Assembly (NCBI RefSeq): GCF_014048475.1
Contig: NZ_NWUS01000003.1
Coordinates: 186,001 to 250,000 of the forward strand
Length of the DNA: 64,000 bases
Source of the DNA: Bombella favorum
GTDB lineage: Bacteria > Pseudomonadota > Alphaproteobacteria > Acetobacterales > Acetobacteraceae
Direction of reading: 5' to 3'
The notes under the pieces: model-generated
Seen by the model: only the letters and a program-made list of their open reading frames with translations
Database searches by the model: none
Told to the model about the DNA's origin: nothing
Made by a program: the position numbers and the translations under genes
Shown: positions 50-7,997 of the stretch, in pieces
Position numbering within the stretch: position 1 is the stretch's first letter
Layout: the number at the start of each line of letters is the position of its first letter

Positions 50-96
50 GGCCTAAAGAAAAGAACCACCGGGGTCCATGGCCCCCGGTGGTTCTT
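50..96 (-). terminator. Rho-independent terminator of the leftward microcin-like gene
   Basis: A perfect 14-bp inverted repeat (arms 61-74 and 83-96, 8-nt loop) is followed on the minus strand by a T-rich tail. It lies about 45 bp beyond the stop codon of the 143-559 gene. On the plus strand there is no T tract, so it serves leftward transcription. A second, shorter hairpin (about 35-54) lies just outside it. Nothing else can be assigned in bases 1-142. Confidence 0.8.
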
Positions 97-142
97 CAAT
101 ATCCATATCACCGCCCTGAACAGGCAGTCGTGTCATGGTAGA

Positions 143-559
143 TTAGAAAAGTCCGCCACCCTTGGGCAGCAGGCTGCCTGTCAGGAAGGACTGCACCGCA
201 CCATCACGGTAGCCCTGTGTCCCAACATAACCACCGGACAGACCCAGCATTGCGCCCGTCAGGCCACCAAACGCCAGTCCCAGAATCACGCCGACGGCCT
301 CAGCAATCACGCCAACACCGATGACACCGCCTGTACCGTTGGCACCACCGTTAGCACCACCTGTGAGGCCACCAACGGCCGCACCGACAACACCATCCAC
401 GATGCCGCCAACGAGGCTATCTGCCAAACCAAGCGAAGCACGCACAGGGAAAAGGCCAGTGCTGCTATTGCTGCTTCCTGAAGAACCCGTCCCGTCACGG
501 TAGCCGAAGAGACCAGCACCAGATACCGCACCAAGCTCGTTAAAAGAAAGTTCACGCAT
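143..559 (-). CDS. Microcin-like double-glycine-leader peptide 1
   Basis: A 138-residue precursor. Residues 1-15 resemble the colicin V leader (colicin V: MRTLTLNELDSVSGG; here MRELSFNELGAVSGA), with Gly-Ala replacing Gly-Gly at the expected C39 cleavage point. That would leave a mature peptide of about 123 residues. The body is very rich in Gly, Ala and Val with repeated GxxxG spacing, suggesting a membrane-active glycine-zipper peptide. A ribosome-binding sequence AAAGG lies upstream of the ATG. It is paralogous to the divergent 822-1232 gene, sharing the leader, a GLADS segment and the order of hydrophobic blocks. The exporter at 1.3-6.5 kb is the likely secretion machine. Antibacterial activity is inferred from leader and context, not shown. 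A non-toxic secreted peptide is the alternative. Confidence 0.72.
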   Translation of the reverse strand: MRELSFNELGAVSGAGLFGYRDGTGSSGSSNSSTGLFPVRASLGLADSLVGGIVDGVVGAAVGGLTGGANGGANGTGGVIGVGVIAEAVGVILGLAFGGLTGAMLGLSGGYVGTQGYRDGAVQSFLTGSLLPKGGGLF

Positions 560-821
560 TTCTAGAACCTTTCAATAAACTCACACTCAATTGCGAGTGG
601 GAGCAGTATGCATTAAAAAATGGAAATATGTTTTCATTATGTCGCTGTTATTTTTGATTTTTTACCATATTTTTTATAATTTATTACCTACGCACTCCTA
701 TTTTGTACTTTTCCTTATTTTTAAATCTACCTTCTCTGTTTTTTAACATTAATTCCCTAGAGTCCCGCATCGGTGACAGTCATAGAGACTGCCCAACCCT
801 CTGTAGTTTAAGGTACAAAAC
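560..821. promoter_or_regulatory. Divergent promoter region of the two microcin-like genes
   Basis: A 262-bp AT-rich intergenic region between two head-to-head peptide genes. It contains long T and A/T runs (about 630-745) unlike the GC-rich surroundings, and must hold both promoters. I could not pick convincing -35/-10 pairs. No gene was found in it; the only small reading frame (620-679, 19 hydrophobic residues) has no ribosome-binding site. Confidence 0.55.
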
Positions 822-1232
822 ATGCGTGAACTTAGCGTTGTAGAACTGGATGCCGTTTCTGGTGCTGGTTTTCTGGGCGACCTATTGGGTCTTGGCGGTT
901 CCTCCAACCGTGCTCAGGGTACCGGGACCGGGGTATCTAACGGCTTGGCAGACTCCATCCTCGGCGCTATCGCCGGTGCTTCCATCGGTGCAAACAGCGG
1001 TATGATTATCGGCGGCATACACGGCGGTGACGGCGGTGGCGTCCTCGGTATTGGGTCCATTGGTCAGGCTGTTGGTCTGATCGTGCCGACCATCATGGGT
1101 GCCATCAACGGTTGTATTCTGGGTGCTATCTACGGCTTTAGCAACGGCCAGACATGGATCAACCAGCTGATCCAGGGTACGGCTAACGGCACAATCGGTC
1201 AGGGACCGAATGCTGCTGCTATCCGTATCTAA
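822..1232 (+). CDS. Microcin-like double-glycine-leader peptide 2
   Basis: A 136-residue precursor with leader MRELSVVELDAVSGA, again ending Ser-Gly-Ala-Gly, leaving about 121 residues. The body is Gly/Ile/Ala-rich: GLADSILGAIAG near residue 45, a GGDGGG turn near 68, then a long hydrophobic stretch with GxxxG-type spacing and a C-terminal polar tail. Its layout matches peptide 1 block for block, so the two arose by duplication. They could act as a two-peptide bacteriocin or as alternative toxins. The ribosome-binding sequence AAGG lies 9 nt before the ATG, and a strong terminator follows. One Cys occurs in the body, so an internal disulfide is impossible. Function is inferred from the leader and neighbouring exporter. 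Confidence 0.72.
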   Translation: MRELSVVELDAVSGAGFLGDLLGLGGSSNRAQGTGTGVSNGLADSILGAIAGASIGANSGMIIGGIHGGDGGGVLGIGSIGQAVGLIVPTIMGAINGCILGAIYGFSNGQTWINQLIQGTANGTIGQGPNAAAIRI

Positions 1233-1260
1233 AACCAGCTTTCACCCTAAATCTCTCTAA

Positions 1261-1301
1261 AAAATCCCCGCCTGTTTTTCGGACAGGCGGGGATTTTTTT
1301 C
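1261..1301. terminator. Bidirectional terminator between peptide 2 and the exporter
   Basis: A GC-rich inverted repeat (arms about 1265-1274 and 1284-1293) is followed by seven T on the plus strand and preceded by A-rich sequence. It can stop both the rightward peptide gene and the leftward exporter operon ending at 1322. Confidence 0.85.
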
Positions 1302-1321
1302 TAAAATAGACGTCCTTCCTA

Positions 1322-3520
1322 TCAAGCGGGACTAGGGCTGGCAGCTCCAGCCACAGGTGAGGCCGAAACACCCCCTCCCTGCGACAGATTAGCCATCATC
1401 TCGGCTGGAACACCCATAACAAATATCCCATCCGCTCTTTCCGCCGTACCGGGACGATGGGTTACAACTACTCGGGTAATGGGCAGCTCATTCAACACCG
1501 CTTCCACAGCCTGTTCAGAGGCAGGATCAAGATTGCTCGTTGCTTCATCAAGGAACAGAATACGGGGAGCCTGATACAGCGCACGAGCAAGAATCAAGCG
1601 TTGCCTCTGCCCACCGGACAACGTACTCCCCATCTCACCGACAATCGTTTCCAAGCCCATCGGCATACGTTGGATATCTTCATGAATCTGTGCATTTCTT
1701 GCACATTCTGCCACCCATTCTAGGTCCATCTCATCATCAAAGCCTGAAATATTCTCAGCAATGCTGCCAGAAAAGAGAATATCATCCTGAAGAACACCAG
1801 CAATCCGGGCGCGATAAGCCTCCCTGTTAGAGGCTTTCAGTTCCATACCTTTCCAGAATATCTGGCCCTCTTCAGGCTGGATAAGCCCCATCAACAACCC
1901 CAACAGGGTGGATTTGCCACAGCCTGAAGGCCCAACAATCGCCAGACTTTTCCCCGGATAGACCTTTAGATTCAGGTGACGGAACACCCATGTGTCTTCC
2001 TTGCCGTAACGATAGCCAAGGTTACGACATTCCAGCATCGGAACATCTGGATTCTCCATTCCATCATCATCGGTAAGCCCAGCAGTATCGCTCACCGGGC
2101 TATCTGCCTCGCTCCCCTCTGCCTCGGCCAACGCAATATCCGACAGGCGGTCACACTGAACCTTCAAATTCTTGATCTTGAAAGCAACGCCTATCAAACT
2201 GCCAACACGACCACAGAACTGGTCACGATAGCTCATAAAAGCCATCAACATACCAATGGACATACCACCGGACATCACCATCCGTGCCCCCAGAACAAGC
2301 GTTGCCACTTTGTCCAGGGCGATCAGAATTTCCTGTGCTCGAGCGAAGATGAGATCATAACGCTGGATACGCAGCCCCGCATTAATGTTGTCGATCATCC
2401 GGTTAGTCCAGACGACTGTCCGACGCCGTTGAAGGCCCATCAACTTGATGCTGCGGATACCACGCAATGTCTCGATAAAATGCCCCTGCTGCGCGGCTGA
2501 ATGAACCAGAGTTTCCTCACTCATCTCCTTATAAGGGCCGTACTGGATGAAGCGCACGACTAGGTCCACCAGCACAGTGATAGCCACAAGGGCCGCCATC
2601 CATTTGCCGTAGATGATGATCATGACCAACATACCGATGGCCATGATTCCATCCAGAACACTCTGCACCAGGTCTGTCGTAAAAGTATGCTGAATGGCCC
2701 CGAGGCTGCCAAAGCGGGATATGATGTCCCCCGCCCCACGCTTTGCAAAGAAATCCTGCGGAAGGCTAAGCAGATGGGTAAACAGGCTAACATTCCATTG
2801 TAGCGAGATACGGGTGGAGAAAATCATCACCAACCATGTACGGAAGGTGGAAATCACTCCCTGTATGACCACAAGAATGAGCATCCCAGCCGCAATGGTC
2901 CAAAGGAGGGACTTGTCGCCTGTTGTCAGCACCTCATCAATGACCACCTGCCCTAGCATGGGGTTGATGAGAGCCAGAGCCTCCAGCCCCAAAGACAGCC
3001 CGCCCAATGTCCACAGGACCGTTTTTAGCCCCACGATATGGCGGAACATGTCCCGCACCTTCAGCAGGGAGCGGTCATCTTTTTTCTCGAATTTAGTTTC
3101 CGGCGTCAGCTCCAATGCCACGCCAGTGAAATGACGAGACACCTCCTCCAGAGCAACTTTCCGTTCTCCTCGAGCCGGATCGTTGATGACAATGCCGGAA
3201 TCCGTAACCTTCGTCAGCACAACAAAATGGTTAAAATCCCAGTGCAGGACGCAGGGGCGGGAGAGTTTGCTAAGGTCATCTAGCTCCAGCCGGACAGGGC
3301 GGCAATGCAAACCGTAGCGACTGGCAATCTTCATCAAAGCCCGCAAATTGAGCCCCGTGCCAGACACCGATGTCTCTCGCCTTATGGAAACAAGGTCCAC
3401 CAGACGCCCATAATGGCACAGCACCATAGCCAAACAGGCTAGTCCGCACTCTGCAATTTCTGTCTGTAGGATAACGGGAACCTTACGCCGAAAACCAGTA
3501 TGGATAGTATGAAGATTCAC
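1322..3520 (-). CDS. Peptidase-containing ABC exporter (CvaB/LagD type, C39 domain)
   Basis: 732 residues, usual length for a bacteriocin-processing ABC exporter. Residues 1-140 form a C39 peptidase with oxyanion Gln19, catalytic Cys25 (motif AECGLACLAM), His98 and Asp114. A transmembrane ABC domain follows (about 165-440). The nucleotide-binding domain has Walker A GPSGCGKST, signature LSGGQRQR and Walker B ILFLDEATSNLD. The family cuts double-glycine leaders in the cytoplasm and exports the mature peptide. The start overlaps the upstream HlyD gene by 4 nt, so the two are translationally coupled. A roughly 25-residue acidic insert (about residues 468-492) precedes the ATPase domain. The two leader-bearing genes beside it are the obvious substrates. 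All catalytic motifs are intact. Confidence 0.95.
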   Translation of the reverse strand: MNLHTIHTGFRRKVPVILQTEIAECGLACLAMVLCHYGRLVDLVSIRRETSVSGTGLNLRALMKIASRYGLHCRPVRLELDDLSKLSRPCVLHWDFNHFVVLTKVTDSGIVINDPARGERKVALEEVSRHFTGVALELTPETKFEKKDDRSLLKVRDMFRHIVGLKTVLWTLGGLSLGLEALALINPMLGQVVIDEVLTTGDKSLLWTIAAGMLILVVIQGVISTFRTWLVMIFSTRISLQWNVSLFTHLLSLPQDFFAKRGAGDIISRFGSLGAIQHTFTTDLVQSVLDGIMAIGMLVMIIIYGKWMAALVAITVLVDLVVRFIQYGPYKEMSEETLVHSAAQQGHFIETLRGIRSIKLMGLQRRRTVVWTNRMIDNINAGLRIQRYDLIFARAQEILIALDKVATLVLGARMVMSGGMSIGMLMAFMSYRDQFCGRVGSLIGVAFKIKNLKVQCDRLSDIALAEAEGSEADSPVSDTAGLTDDDGMENPDVPMLECRNLGYRYGKEDTWVFRHLNLKVYPGKSLAIVGPSGCGKSTLLGLLMGLIQPEEGQIFWKGMELKASNREAYRARIAGVLQDDILFSGSIAENISGFDDEMDLEWVAECARNAQIHEDIQRMPMGLETIVGEMGSTLSGGQRQRLILARALYQAPRILFLDEATSNLDPASEQAVEAVLNELPITRVVVTHRPGTAERADGIFVMGVPAEMMANLSQGGGVSASPVAGAASPSPA

Positions 3521-4923
3521 GGCGTCCCCTCTGTCTGGTGATCATGTCTGGAAGGAGCGGAAGATGGGGCGGTTTCTGGCCGGGATACCCTGTCCGCCAG
3601 AGAAGCAGCAGGTGCAGCACTGCCAGATATGGATCGGACGGTGTCCACCATGGAAACCACAGGATCGAGCAGCCACTGGTAAAGTTTGCGCTGGTCGATA
3701 GCGATTTCCGCATCCACAGCCATACCAGGGGTCAGCTTTTCATGCTGACCATAAGCAATGATGAAATCCTGATCCGGCCGAACACGGATACGATACACAT
3801 CCGCACCGGGCTGCGGGGCAGACGCACTGCCCCCCTGCTGGGCCGTTTTAGCTGCGTAATTGCTCCGCTCTGGCAAAGGTGCCTTGGTGACCTCCACCAC
3901 TTCCCCCTCATAAAGGCCGAAACGCTGGTAAGGATAAGCGGCATATTTCAGCAACACATGTTGCCCAGGGCGGACGAAGCCAATGGCCTGACTGTTCACA
4001 TACAATTCTGCTTGCAGCTTGGCCTTGTCTGGCAGGATGCTCAGCAAAGACTGCCCGGGATTGACCCGCTGCCCTACAACTGTGCGGATGCCATCCACCA
4101 TGCCACTAACACGAGCGTTGACAACCCCCATGCTCTGGCCATGTGCCTGAATGATCTGCCGCTGCACATCGGAAAGACGAACGGCAAGATCGTTCATGTC
4201 TTCAGCAACCTTATACTGGTGCCGATTGATCCTATACTGGAGGTCAGCCATATGGCTGTTCATTTCAACAAGTGTCCGCAAAGTCTGGGACTGCGTATCC
4301 ATAAACTGGACATAGCTGAAAAGCTGACTCTGGAACTGGCTTTCCGTCACGAGATGGCGATCCATAGCCGTCCGCATCTCGTTCATGGCCCTTTCAATCA
4401 GGGGCAGAGACTTCTTGTCCCGCCCTGATTGCTCCTGCAACATACCATATTGCTGATGCAAAAAATTGAGCTCATCCTTAAGAGAGGACAGTTCTACCGG
4501 GGCATCGGAAGCCAGAAGTTTCTGCCGGCTTTCCAATAGGTTTTGCTCCCGCCGCAGCCCATCAATGAGCTGCCGCCCAGTCGCCCCGGATTCCGACCAG
4601 CTGGAAACATCCACGCTGAAGAGCCGCTCACCCGTTGTCACATGGTCGCCTTCATGGACATGGATTGTGGCAATAACACCGCCTTGATCCGCTTCCGCAA
4701 CGACTAGCCCTTCGGGCGGCAACATGACCCCATTGGCATGAATACGCCGCGTATAAGACCCAAAAGCAACGTAAACCCCCAGACAGACGACAAGTGCCAC
4801 AGTACAGAGCGCTGCGATCTTCCCCGAGAGGGGTTCGATCAACTGGACGGAGCCGATCCACGCCTCCTGCCGCCATTTTAGGGCCTCTCCCCTAAAAAGC
4901 GGGCTTGCTGAATCTTCAGCCAT
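3517..4923 (-). CDS. HlyD-family membrane fusion protein (CvaA type) of the peptide exporter
   Basis: About 468 residues. A short cytoplasmic N-terminus is followed by one transmembrane helix (around residues 35-55), then a biotinyl-lipoyl-like half, a long alpha-helical hairpin rich in Gln/Leu/Glu (about 110-255), the second half of the lipoyl-like domain and a C-terminal beta region. This is the periplasmic adaptor linking the ABC transporter to an outer membrane channel. I chose the ATG at 4923; an in-frame GTG three codons upstream (4932) is also possible and neither has a strong ribosome-binding site. First gene of the leftward exporter operon, overlapping the ABC gene by 4 nt. Confidence 0.92.
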   Translation of the reverse strand: MAEDSASPLFRGEALKWRQEAWIGSVQLIEPLSGKIAALCTVALVVCLGVYVAFGSYTRRIHANGVMLPPEGLVVAEADQGGVIATIHVHEGDHVTTGERLFSVDVSSWSESGATGRQLIDGLRREQNLLESRQKLLASDAPVELSSLKDELNFLHQQYGMLQEQSGRDKKSLPLIERAMNEMRTAMDRHLVTESQFQSQLFSYVQFMDTQSQTLRTLVEMNSHMADLQYRINRHQYKVAEDMNDLAVRLSDVQRQIIQAHGQSMGVVNARVSGMVDGIRTVVGQRVNPGQSLLSILPDKAKLQAELYVNSQAIGFVRPGQHVLLKYAAYPYQRFGLYEGEVVEVTKAPLPERSNYAAKTAQQGGSASAPQPGADVYRIRVRPDQDFIIAYGQHEKLTPGMAVDAEIAIDQRKLYQWLLDPVVSMVDTVRSISGSAAPAASLADRVSRPETAPSSAPSRHDHQTEGTP

Positions 4924-5052
4924 ACACCACACAAACAGTTAAAAGAAAAAGTAAATGAATATTAACGGTTATCATGCATAATATTATATCCACACACAAA
5001 ACAAGCAAGTCACTAAATGACTAACGCTTTCTTTACTTGGGGTTAATATTTT
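4924..5052. promoter_or_regulatory. Divergent promoter region of exporter operon and TolC-like gene
   Basis: A 129-bp AT-rich gap between head-to-head genes for the fusion protein (left) and the outer membrane channel (right). The arrangement suggests coordinated expression of the three export components. I see no recognisable operator. Confidence 0.5.
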
Positions 5053-6471
5053 ATGTATCTTTTCTTTTGCTTGCCAGAGAAAAGACACGCCACTCTCCTA
5101 ATAGCGTTCATCAGCTTCTTCTCACCGCTGCCCACTCTGGCGGCAACGGACCCCGCCCCTGTCACGCATCTTTCCCTGCAAGAAGCCATGGCTATTGCCT
5201 ATCGCTCCAACCCAGAAATACTCCGTGAACGGGCCATATTGAGGCAAACAGATGAATCCATGCCGGAGGCTCTGTCCGGCTGGCGGCCAACAGTGACGGG
5301 CAGTGCAACGGCCAACTATAATGAATCCAACTACGTCACGTTCCCGTATGGGGGGAGCTTCCGCTACAATCAGAAATTCCGGGCACCGGGCTATGCGGCG
5401 GGTGTAACCATCAGCGAGCCCCTCTTCCGTGGGGGCAAAACATGGGCTTCCATGCGCAAGGCTCGCAGCTCCATCCTTGGGGAGCGGGCTCACCTTGTGG
5501 ATATCGAGCAGCAGCTCTTCATCAATGTTGTTTCGGCTTATGTGGCGGTCACACAAGCCCGTGCCCTGCTGGCCCTAACACTGGAAAATGAACATACCCT
5601 GAAGGGTCAGGTCGAACTGACAACCCGACAGCTTGCTCTGAATCAGGCTACCCGTACCGATGCCCTTCAGGCGGAATCACAATATGAGGCGGCACAGGCC
5701 TCCACACGTCAAGCGGAGGGGCAAGTCCGTGTTGCGGAGGCTACCTTCCAGCGGGTTATAGGAATTGTTACGCCAGAAAAACTTTCTCCAGCAGAACGGC
5801 TTCCTTCTCCTTTTGTTTCAGAGACGCAAATAAACCAGCTAACCATCAATGACCTACCACAGGTCATGCAAGCTCAATATCAGCTCGAATCAGCAAAGCA
5901 TGACGTTAAACTAGCCATCGCCGAGCTGCTCCCAGAGGTTTCCGCTCAAGCCTCCTATCAACGGCAGGTGAATCAGGGGAATGGTAAATTCTCCGAAGAT
6001 GCCACAGCCGTCATGCTTCAGGCCTCCCTACCGCTCTATCAAGGTGGTGGTGAATATGCCCGCATCCGGGCAGCCAAACAGGCGGTTGATGCGGCCCTCC
6101 ATAATCTAGCCGAACAGCGTCGTGAAGCCCGGGAAACAGCCCTAAGTGCGTGGCAGAAACTTACTGCCGATAGTGACCAGCTTGCACGGAACCAAAAAGC
6201 CGTTGCTACTGGTGTGGAGGCCCTCCACGCCATTCAGCAACAGGAGCTTCTAGGCGTCCGTACCACTTTTGAAGTGCTCCAGCAGCAGGAGCTGCTCTTT
6301 GATCAACAGAAGACGCTCGTCCAGAACGCTGCCAACCTAATTCAGGATTCCTACCGGCTGGCCGCAGCAACCGGCCATCTAACAGCCAAAGAACTCAAAC
6401 TGCATGTAGCTCTCTATGACCCGCACGCCCATTATCATCAGGTGAAATGGAAACTCATCGGGATGGAGTAA
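5053..6471 (+). CDS. TolC-family outer membrane efflux protein
   Basis: 472 residues. The N-terminal 30 residues look like a signal peptide (hydrophobic LLIAFISFF stretch ending near ALA-type sequence TLAATD). The rest shows the duplicated coiled-coil/beta architecture of the TolC superfamily: the block starting LSLQEAMAIAYRSNPEIL, an N-terminal repeat with Gln/Ala-rich helices, and a second repeat from about residue 265 (DLPQVMQAQYQLESAKHDV). It provides the outer membrane tunnel for type I secretion. Divergent to the HlyD-ABC operon and next to the peptide genes, so most likely dedicated to peptide export, though TolC proteins often serve several pumps. Length is normal for the family. Confidence 0.93.
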   Translation: MYLFFCLPEKRHATLLIAFISFFSPLPTLAATDPAPVTHLSLQEAMAIAYRSNPEILRERAILRQTDESMPEALSGWRPTVTGSATANYNESNYVTFPYGGSFRYNQKFRAPGYAAGVTISEPLFRGGKTWASMRKARSSILGERAHLVDIEQQLFINVVSAYVAVTQARALLALTLENEHTLKGQVELTTRQLALNQATRTDALQAESQYEAAQASTRQAEGQVRVAEATFQRVIGIVTPEKLSPAERLPSPFVSETQINQLTINDLPQVMQAQYQLESAKHDVKLAIAELLPEVSAQASYQRQVNQGNGKFSEDATAVMLQASLPLYQGGGEYARIRAAKQAVDAALHNLAEQRREARETALSAWQKLTADSDQLARNQKAVATGVEALHAIQQQELLGVRTTFEVLQQQELLFDQQKTLVQNAANLIQDSYRLAAATGHLTAKELKLHVALYDPHAHYHQVKWKLIGME

Positions 6472-6560
6472 AACACCTCCCCCCTAAACATACCTGACAC
6501 GCTACAGACCTCTCATTCTGCTCTGGTCCTGTTCCAGTAAACAGGGCAGAATGAAGCACC

Positions 6561-7997
6561 ATGCAGCCTAAGTCCGACCCTACCCTCGCCTCGGTTTCCG
6601 CTCCTCTTACATCATCTGGTGTAAAGGATACGCCCTGCGCCCGGCAGAAGGCCCGACGGGCAAGGTTCGTCCAAGGTAACATCATGCGCCATGTTATCAC
6701 CATGGCCGGGACGGGTGCCATCGGGCTGATGGCTGTCTTTTTCGTAGACCTACTCAATTTCTTCTACATCTCCCACCTGCATGACCCCACACTAACGGCA
6801 GCCATCGCCTTTGCGACCTCTCTGGGGTTCGTACAGGTGGCTGTGTCCCTCGGCATGTCCATCGGGCTTGGTGCCAATACGGGGCGCCTCATTGGTGCCT
6901 GCCGCCATTTCCGTGCACGACGCCATGCTTCGGCGTTTCTGGTCATCATGCTGGCTGTCACTACCACTCTTGGCCTCATCACGGCCTGTCTGGCGCACCC
7001 GCTTCTACAATTGCTCGGAGCACGAGGGGCAGCGTTGGACCATGCCACGCACTTCCTTTACATCACCTCACCCGCTCTGCCGCTGGTCTGCCTGGGCATG
7101 GCCCTGTCCTCACTCCTGCGTGCTGTGGGGGATGCGGGCCGTGCCATGAGGGTGACCCTGACAGGGGCCGCCTGCACGATCATCGTGGACCCTATACTGA
7201 TCTTTGGCCTGCATCTGGGGCTGGAGGGAGCGGCCATCAGTACCGTACTTTCACGCTGTGTTATTTCCCTAAGCGGCTTTCTCAATCTCCGGGGGCATGA
7301 CATGCTGGAGCGCCCCCGCCTAAAAATGATTCCCCATGCCAGCCGGTCCATCGGTGCCATTGCCTTACCTGCAATTGGCACCAACATGGCTACACCCATT
7401 GGTAATCTCATCGTCACTCATGCCATGTCCCGCTTCGGGCTTGAGGCCGTATCCGGGCAAGCCGTGATAGACCGCATGGTACCTGTCGCCTTTGCCTTTG
7501 TCTTTGCCCTAACAGGCTCCGTCGGCCCCATTATGGCGCAGAATCTGGGTGCCCGTCAGCCTGACCGCGTTAAGGAAACCTTCCTTTCCGCCCTTAAGCT
7601 AACAGCCCTCTGTGTTGGACTAGATTGGCTGATCTTCGCCCTATGCGAGCCGCTAATCCTCCATGTGTTCCATGTTCAGGGAGCGGGGATAGAGCTGGTG
7701 CGGCTCTTCTGCCACTGGGCCGTGGCCAGCTACATGTTTATTGGGCTGCTCTTTGTCTCTAATACAGCCTTCAACAATCTGGGCCACCCGCTCTATTCCA
7801 CTGCCTTCAACTGGGGGCGGGCCACATTGGGCACGATCCCCTTCATCGCCGTTGGCGTCCATTATGGCCCCCAAGGGGTGATGATCGGTCAAGCTCTGGG
7901 CGTCACGCTCATCGGCTCTCTAGCCCTTATTGCCGCCCTCACCGTCATTCACCGCCTCGGCCAGACCCTCCCTCACCGGAAAGGCAGAATACACTAG
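6561..7997 (+). CDS. MATE-family multidrug/metabolite exporter
   Basis: 478 residues with about 12 hydrophobic segments in two halves, typical of MATE antiporters that expel cationic drugs or metabolites using sodium or proton gradients. The first helix begins around residue 45 (ITMAGTGAIGLMAVFFVDLL). The conserved internal pseudo-repeat is visible (LSSLLRAVGDAGRAM in the first half; FNNLGHPLYSTAFN in the second). The N-terminal 40 residues are hydrophilic and may be partly untranslated if a later start is used (an in-frame ATG lies at about residue 42). The stop overlaps the convergent S9 peptidase gene by 4 nt. The substrate is unknown. No sign of a link to the peptide exporter beyond proximity. 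Confidence 0.88.
   Translation: MQPKSDPTLASVSAPLTSSGVKDTPCARQKARRARFVQGNIMRHVITMAGTGAIGLMAVFFVDLLNFFYISHLHDPTLTAAIAFATSLGFVQVAVSLGMSIGLGANTGRLIGACRHFRARRHASAFLVIMLAVTTTLGLITACLAHPLLQLLGARGAALDHATHFLYITSPALPLVCLGMALSSLLRAVGDAGRAMRVTLTGAACTIIVDPILIFGLHLGLEGAAISTVLSRCVISLSGFLNLRGHDMLERPRLKMIPHASRSIGAIALPAIGTNMATPIGNLIVTHAMSRFGLEAVSGQAVIDRMVPVAFAFVFALTGSVGPIMAQNLGARQPDRVKETFLSALKLTALCVGLDWLIFALCEPLILHVFHVQGAGIELVRLFCHWAVASYMFIGLLFVSNTAFNNLGHPLYSTAFNWGRATLGTIPFIAVGVHYGPQGVMIGQALGVTLIGSLALIAALTVIHRLGQTLPHRKGRIH

Follow-up and report, generated by a model that had tools for sequence, protein, structure and literature searches.

An accessory type I secretion cassette with two putative antibacterial double-glycine peptides in Bombella favorum

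A 64,000-nucleotide stretch of the genome of Bombella favorum (contig NZ_NWUS01000003.1, positions 186,001 to 250,000; here referred to as the window) carries a five-gene cassette encoding two small double-glycine-leader precursors, P1 and P2, an ABC exporter with a C39 peptidase domain, an HlyD-family adaptor and a TolC-family channel. The initial annotation of the window had read these genes as an exporter lying together with two precursors in a probable acetic acid bacterium; the open reading frames (ORFs) and Pfam matches place all five genes where it had put them, and the genome is indeed that of a Bombella. The five genes almost certainly form a self-contained type I secretion cassette that exports leader peptides, and we favour, with moderate confidence and by analogy with known systems, an antibacterial role for P1 and P2. 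The glycine zippers of the peptides, the changing cargo and the accessory distribution of the cassette all point towards competition. All five genes are intact in the window, and the features of the cassette and its border are as follows.

57-6560: extent of the cassette, bounded by a copper-chaperone gene (ending at about 56) and a MATE gene (starting at 6561)
143-559, minus strand: P1, double-glycine-leader precursor, 138 amino acids (aa), from the ORF list, cut site predicted
560-821, no strand: AT-rich intergenic region between the divergent P1 and P2, presumably holding both promoters
822-1232, plus strand: P2, double-glycine-leader precursor, 136 aa, from the ORF list, cut site predicted
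1322-3520, minus strand: C39-peptidase ABC exporter of the PCAT type, GTG start, 732 aa, catalytic residues intact
3517-4932, minus strand: HlyD-family periplasmic adaptor, 471 aa
5053-6471, plus strand: TolC-family outer-membrane channel, 472 aa
6561-7997, plus strand: MATE-family transporter, flanking gene

The export machinery is complete. The ABC protein matched the Pfam models Peptidase_C39 (3.3e-35), ABC_membrane and ABC_tran, while the adaptor matched HlyD_3 (5.3e-16) and the channel OEP (1.7e-51); in NCBIfam, the channel scored above the cut-off of the TolC model TIGR01844, and the ABC and HlyD proteins matched export models below their cut-offs. As the initial annotation had claimed, residues Q19, C25, H98 and D114 of the C39 domain are intact, and so are the Walker A, LSGGQ and Walker B motifs. 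The exporter also aligned over its full length with solved chains described as ABC-type bacteriocin transporters, namely 4ry2 (residues 10-702, E 1.7e-80) and 8vp3 (residues 4-702, E 4.6e-81), which we take to be PCAT1. PCAT1 comes from a Gram-positive bacterium and, unlike the Bombella cassette, functions without an adaptor or outer-membrane channel. The HlyD gene overlaps the start of the ABC gene by 4 bases, and the exporter, adaptor and channel share 98.7-98.9% identity with their Bombella intestini counterparts. Among 23 aligned exporter matches from 22 genomes (20 survey loci plus 3 named Bombella loci, one genome being counted twice), the Q, C, H and D of the C39 domain were kept in all 23 and an adaptor was present at all 23, with a TolC match at 9, namely 6 Bombella loci (5 genomes), G259, G387 and G070.

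The leaders of P1 (MRELSFNELGAVSGA) and P2 (MRELSVVELDAVSGA) both end in VSGA, with a predicted cut after residue 15 in each, and the two precursors are 41% identical. Each leader matched the 15-residue leader of colicin V (CvaC), as published in a passage of PMC10231218, at 9 of 15 positions, which upholds the earlier description of colicin-V-type leaders. With a leader matrix trained on 13 leaders, P1 and P2, both in the training set, scored 38.2 and 40.6, the colicin V leader, outside the training set, scored 29.1, and across the whole window the matrix picked just the P1 and P2 ORFs. The predicted mature products are 123 aa (11.35 kDa) for P1 and 121 aa (11.37 kDa) for P2, with uncharged glycine-zipper stretches at 59-75 and 90-110 in P1 and at 33-41 (short), 48-68 and 93-109 in P2. 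GxxxG pairs numbered 18 in P2 against a shuffle mean of 8.5 (none of 5000 shuffles reached 18) and 16 in P1 against 10.5 (0.018).

P1 and P2 behave as real genes under purifying selection, because their ratios of nonsynonymous to synonymous divergence (dN/dS) lie well below 1 (0.06-0.18 for P1 in three comparisons and 0.14-0.28 for P2 in four). P2 is diverging faster than the exporter, with dN of 0.125, 0.131 and 0.303 against L100, L160 and L101, compared with 0.051, 0.049 and 0.050 for the ABC gene, which counts for a cargo used in competition. The synonymous divergence (dS) of P1 was four- to six-fold lower than that of the ABC gene (0.21 and 0.26 against L100 and L160, versus 1.27 and 1.07); exchange between species or codon constraint could account for it. 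P1 and P2 use GGT or GGC for 64 of their 73 glycines, compared with 63 of 118 for the ABC, HlyD and TolC genes together, a bias that fits high expression.

The cassette from P1 to the TolC gene is a discrete accessory unit, since the genes that flank it (matches to the copper-chaperone and MATE genes) lie only 103 bp apart in three exporter-less Bombella (G243, G273 and G317); in G032, the fourth, no copper-chaperone ortholog was found. At E 1e-110 the exporter was present in 7 of 11 Bombella genomes. We considered the MATE gene as a member of the system and ruled it out, as all 11 Bombella genomes have it, whether or not they carry the exporter. Both P1 and P2 were found in 4 of the 11. Scanning named genomes by pattern and tblastn gave at least four loci, which include Bombella intestini R-52487 (99%), B. 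mellum (80%), B. pluederhausensis (59%) and Acetobacter farinalis (50%). Cargo varied between relatives: G211 has P2 and no P1 match, G118 has a 94%-identical exporter and has lost P1 and kept just a C-terminal piece of P2, and in G350 the same chromosomal site is occupied by an 80%-identical exporter and five leader peptides, none of which the P1/P2 profile detected. Such a swap of cargo beside a related exporter, together with the fast divergence of P2, is as expected of competition cargo. Of the G350 peptides (L080:9209-10805), FPP[DE]-like motifs occur in three, and a GVI[IV]G motif likewise in three.

Two further leader peptides, both with a GG leader, were found in the window genome outside the cassette, about 2 kb from each other.

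G000:C1:994487-994828: P3, leader peptide
G000:C1:992042-992404: P4, leader peptide

The genome thus has at least four leader peptides (P1-P4) rather than the two of the initial annotation. P3 was present in 6 of the 7 Bombella with the exporter and in none of the 4 without it (Fisher 0.015, with related genomes counted apart), and P4 in 4 of the 7 and none of the 4, respectively. Both are probably handled by the cassette exporter, and their retention may explain why G118, which keeps P3 and P4, also keeps the exporter. A 2604-aa Asn/Thr-rich repetitive ORF adjoins P4 (L182:84-7898).

Across 397 Acetobacteraceae genomes, the exporter was found in 71, BLAST relatives of P2 in 11 and P1/P2 profile matches in 21, of which 18 carry the leader. 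All 18 genomes with leader-bearing relatives have the exporter (18/18, versus 71/397 overall), so that such relatives were seen only together with it; conservation of the leader proteins without the exporter is what the initial annotation had named as counting against its reading. The profile hits in G177, G261 and G301, which lie in long frames and begin after the leader, were excluded from this count; with all 21 hits kept, the hypergeometric P was 4e-12, and such P values are too small because genomes of the same genus are not independent. In a class-wide profile search, 8 of 385 genomes matched, 2 of them Acetobacteraceae (the window genome and G040), and the remaining 6, outside the family, were borderline (E 4e-4 to 9e-4) and began after the leader.

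Leader ORFs above score 10 lay near 20 of 32 exporters (stretches of 10.0-19.0 kb, 496,320 bases in total) versus 0 of 20 control regions, where the top score was 7.1 (16.0 kb each, 320,020 bases in total; each from a different one of 20 genomes, with the places picked by hand and not drawn at random). As many exporter loci had been chosen for an already-known profile hit, and some training leaders came from three of the 20 exporter loci examined first (L081, L084 and L095), we counted separately the 17 loci that had no previously known hit: 8 had a leader ORF, with one of these, G169, scoring just 11.0, and 7 of 17 had one at a threshold of 13. Gene maps of 12 exporter loci contained leader peptides in 9. 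The cores near exporters vary widely and include glycine-zipper, cysteine-containing and histidine-rich proteins. We also observed that the exporter of G246 adjoins a run of four leader peptides (L091:10720-12963), and in genus g31 a cysteine-containing leader-peptide family with copies at the exporter and elsewhere (L094:5099-5494, L098:4700-5086, L154:2395-2790 and L159:3102-3491).

Judging from the protein families, the C39 domain of the ABC exporter would cut P1 and P2 at their double-glycine leaders, and probably P3 and P4 as well, and the ABC-HlyD-TolC complex would then carry the cores out of the cell. The long hydrophobic glycine-zipper cores probably act there as membrane-active bacteriocins on competing bacteria, in the manner of the surface-held Cdz proteins of Caulobacter or of class II microcins. 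By the same analogies the target would be a membrane, and the product could either diffuse or stay held at the cell; contact-dependent action is a tentative suggestion.

Among the closest parallels by description is the Cdz system of Caulobacter crescentus (CdzABCDI), another alphaproteobacterial system, in which two small glycine-zipper proteins are served by a type I exporter (CdzA the ABC protein, CdzB the adaptor), as set out in passages of PMC5380434, where Cdz-like systems are also predicted in many bacteria. Those passages give Cdz-like proteins as having 60-151 residues, a leader ending in G[G/A/S] and one or two zippers that proline or charge may flank but not interrupt. P1 (138 aa) and P2 (136 aa) fall within this range, their leaders end in VSGA, and P1 has two uninterrupted zipper stretches and P2 two long ones and a short one, as scored within the stretches themselves; by eye, the end of P1 has R, D and K and that of P2 is polar with one R. 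An ABC protein and an HlyD-family protein are both present, likened to CdzA and CdzB by description only. On the other hand, the Bombella cassette includes its own TolC, its peptide genes are divergently transcribed and encode 138 and 136 aa rather than the 86 and 84 given for Cdz, further peptides lie elsewhere in the genome, and no counterpart of CdzI (a three-transmembrane immunity protein in the same passages) was recognised in the cassette. Immunity genes are described as hard to identify in other Cdz-like systems as well (PMC5380434).

Colicin V, exported by CvaA-CvaB-TolC, resembles the cassette in its leader, its C39 ABC protein, its HlyD adaptor and TolC. With class II microcins the cassette shares a GG or GA leader (GA in P1 and P2, GG in P3 and P4) and the PCAT and membrane-fusion export machinery. 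Class II microcins are described, in passages of PMC10233263, as having an adjacent immunity gene and a size of about 5-10 kDa; here the predicted mature peptides are slightly larger, match no microcin model and have no adjacent immunity protein recognised in the cassette. With no recognised immunity gene and with killing activity only putative, the cassette is not classed as a member of either the Cdz-like systems or the class II microcins. The arrangement had also been taken as new outside Enterobacterales, which does not hold: such systems are already known there, as the Caulobacter Cdz and the predicted Cdz-like systems precede it (passages of PMC5380434) and MccV-like genes are described in Xylella (a passage of PMC10233263).

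Several observations weigh against an antibacterial role. In the cassette neither an immunity gene nor a conserved small transmembrane ORF was recognised. Among the zipper statistics, the longest every-fourth-residue glycine chain of P2, 8 glycines (0.0018), includes an aspartate and has an uncharged part of 6, that of P1, 6 glycines, is marginal (0.041), and such chains of any small residue lie within what composition gives (P1 0.11, P2 0.064). The dN of P1 (0.038 and 0.027 against L100 and L160) is not faster than that of the ABC gene (0.049-0.051), its dN/dS exceeding the exporter's only through low dS. Neither P1 nor P2 itself matched a bacteriocin model in Pfam or NCBIfam; P2 matched only DUF5862, below the cut-off, as did 12 of 15 relatives. 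Weak matches to bacteriocin models among the 15 family members (Pfam MccV in 3, best 0.027; Pfam Bacteriocin_IIc in 2, best 0.34; NCBIfam CTB bacteriocin in 3, best 0.0057) do speak for a bacteriocin, and two other glycine-rich models, Tim17 (0.012) and Gly-zipper_OmpA (0.015), were matched about as strongly as MccV. AlphaFold predictions of P2 and P1 were uninformative (predicted local distance difference test, pLDDT, 44.0 and 39.6). At 12 of the 32 exporter loci, some of them at contig ends, no leader peptide was seen, although two of these genomes, G013 and G299, have leader peptides elsewhere. The initial annotation had also held that an inactive C39 domain, or one conserved with unrelated substrates, would speak against it; the catalytic residues are intact, and related exporters do often adjoin leader peptides with unrelated cores (e.g. 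G350, G276 and G374), an arrangement that suits a general peptide exporter no less than a bacteriocin system. Glycine zippers are, moreover, also contained in amyloid-forming proteins.

The peptides might instead be secreted matrix, adhesion or amyloid-like proteins for biofilm or surface coating rather than toxins, which we consider unlikely, if less so than the other alternatives. A passage of PMC4997328 describes four double-glycine proteins of Synechococcus elongatus, EbfG1-4, that are secreted via a C39 transporter (PteB) and enable biofilm; several such proteins served by one transporter resemble the Bombella arrangement as far as the descriptions go, and glycine zippers are noted to promote aggregation in a passage of PMC5380434. 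The lack of a recognised immunity gene in the cassette, the further leader peptides elsewhere in the genome, a codon bias that fits an abundant product and the well-conserved P1 protein would all suit such a role. An exporter that is accessory (7 of 11 Bombella) and cores that vary between relatives would, however, be less usual for a structural matrix than for competition factors.

Double-glycine leaders and C39 exporters are also used for signal peptides, so P1 and P2 could be signals sensed by the producer's own kind; the predicted cores, 121 and 123 residues in length and mostly hydrophobic, would make rather long signals and the cassette has no sensor gene, and we regard this as improbable. 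A decaying or non-functional remnant, as the state of G118 (without P1 and most of P2) and the lack of the exporter in 4 of 11 Bombella might suggest, is most improbable given five intact window genes, dN/dS well below 1 and the retention of P3, P4 and the exporter in G118.

Between P1 and P2, a 51-aa AT-rich ORF (591-746) is 96% identical in B. intestini, has a 64% match of 33 aa in B. mellum and was not found in G334; it is a possible but unsupported immunity gene, since T-rich DNA readily gives such ORFs, and no ORF in 560-821 was conserved across all four aligned Bombella genomes. Elsewhere, a 54-aa ORF with two predicted transmembrane segments lies between two leader peptides in G350 (L080:10312-10476), and in G013 three tandem leader peptides have an 84-aa lipoprotein-like ORF next to them (L156:5343-5597).

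Bombella is a genus known from bees. The window genome and B. intestini have, at the same chromosomal site, an accessory cassette whose cargo resembles bacteriocins, whereas a survey of 22 Bombella genomes that names B. intestini among its species reports no bacteriocins by BAGEL4 (PMC9147383). This makes the cassette a testable candidate for competition by a bee-associated bacterium, and for comparison there are relatives that have or lack the exporter, that lack P1/P2 or that carry other cargo. More widely, one acetic-acid-bacterial exporter lineage adjoins varied and partly dispersed leader peptides. A survey of Commensalibacter notes a bacteriocin exporter gene and names no peptide in the passage concerned (PMC10149009). 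No account of the Bombella system was found by titles and abstract openings in the open-licence PMC literature, nor was the term DUF5862 found in that literature, and P2 had no match among PLSDB plasmids at E 0.01. What is new is the system missed by the BAGEL4 survey, its dispersed multi-cargo organisation and the recurrence of Hint_2 proteins beside the peptides.

Of 43 loci scanned, 30 had leader peptides (orthologous loci such as L152 and L182 among them), and at 9 of these 30, in several Acetobacteraceae genera, proteins with the Pfam domain Hint_2 lay within 3 kb of the peptides. Such proteins occurred at 11 of the 32 exporter loci, compared with 1 of the 20 control regions (Fisher 0.014, with related loci counted apart). 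In A. farinalis, a Hint_2 protein follows each of two leader peptides, and in the window genome one Hint_2 gene lies between P4 and P3. Two of the Hint_2 features are located as follows.

L003:4597-6351: Hint_2-domain protein, about 3.8 kb left of P1
L182:8793-10367: Hint_2-domain protein

As read from coordinates, all 7 Bombella with the exporter have an intact Hint_2 gene some 4-5 kb away from the cassette site, compared with none of the 4 that lack it; in the exporter-less G032, the Hint_2 gene near that site has an in-frame stop. Since every one of the 11 Bombella genomes contains Hint_2 genes (2-7 hits per genome), the association is no more than a lead. It is conceivable, and rather doubtful, that the double-glycine peptides of Acetobacteraceae and the adjacent Hint_2 proteins (Hedgehog/intein-type) form a two-part exported weapon or surface assembly, whose producer would be protected without a classical immunity gene. 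In the literature searched, we found no account of a Hint domain in Acetobacteraceae, and among the papers listed when bacteriocins and type I secretion were considered as well, none used the term. Further genes left of the cassette in the window genome encode a multicopper oxidase and a copper chaperone with an HMA domain (L003:7597-10053).

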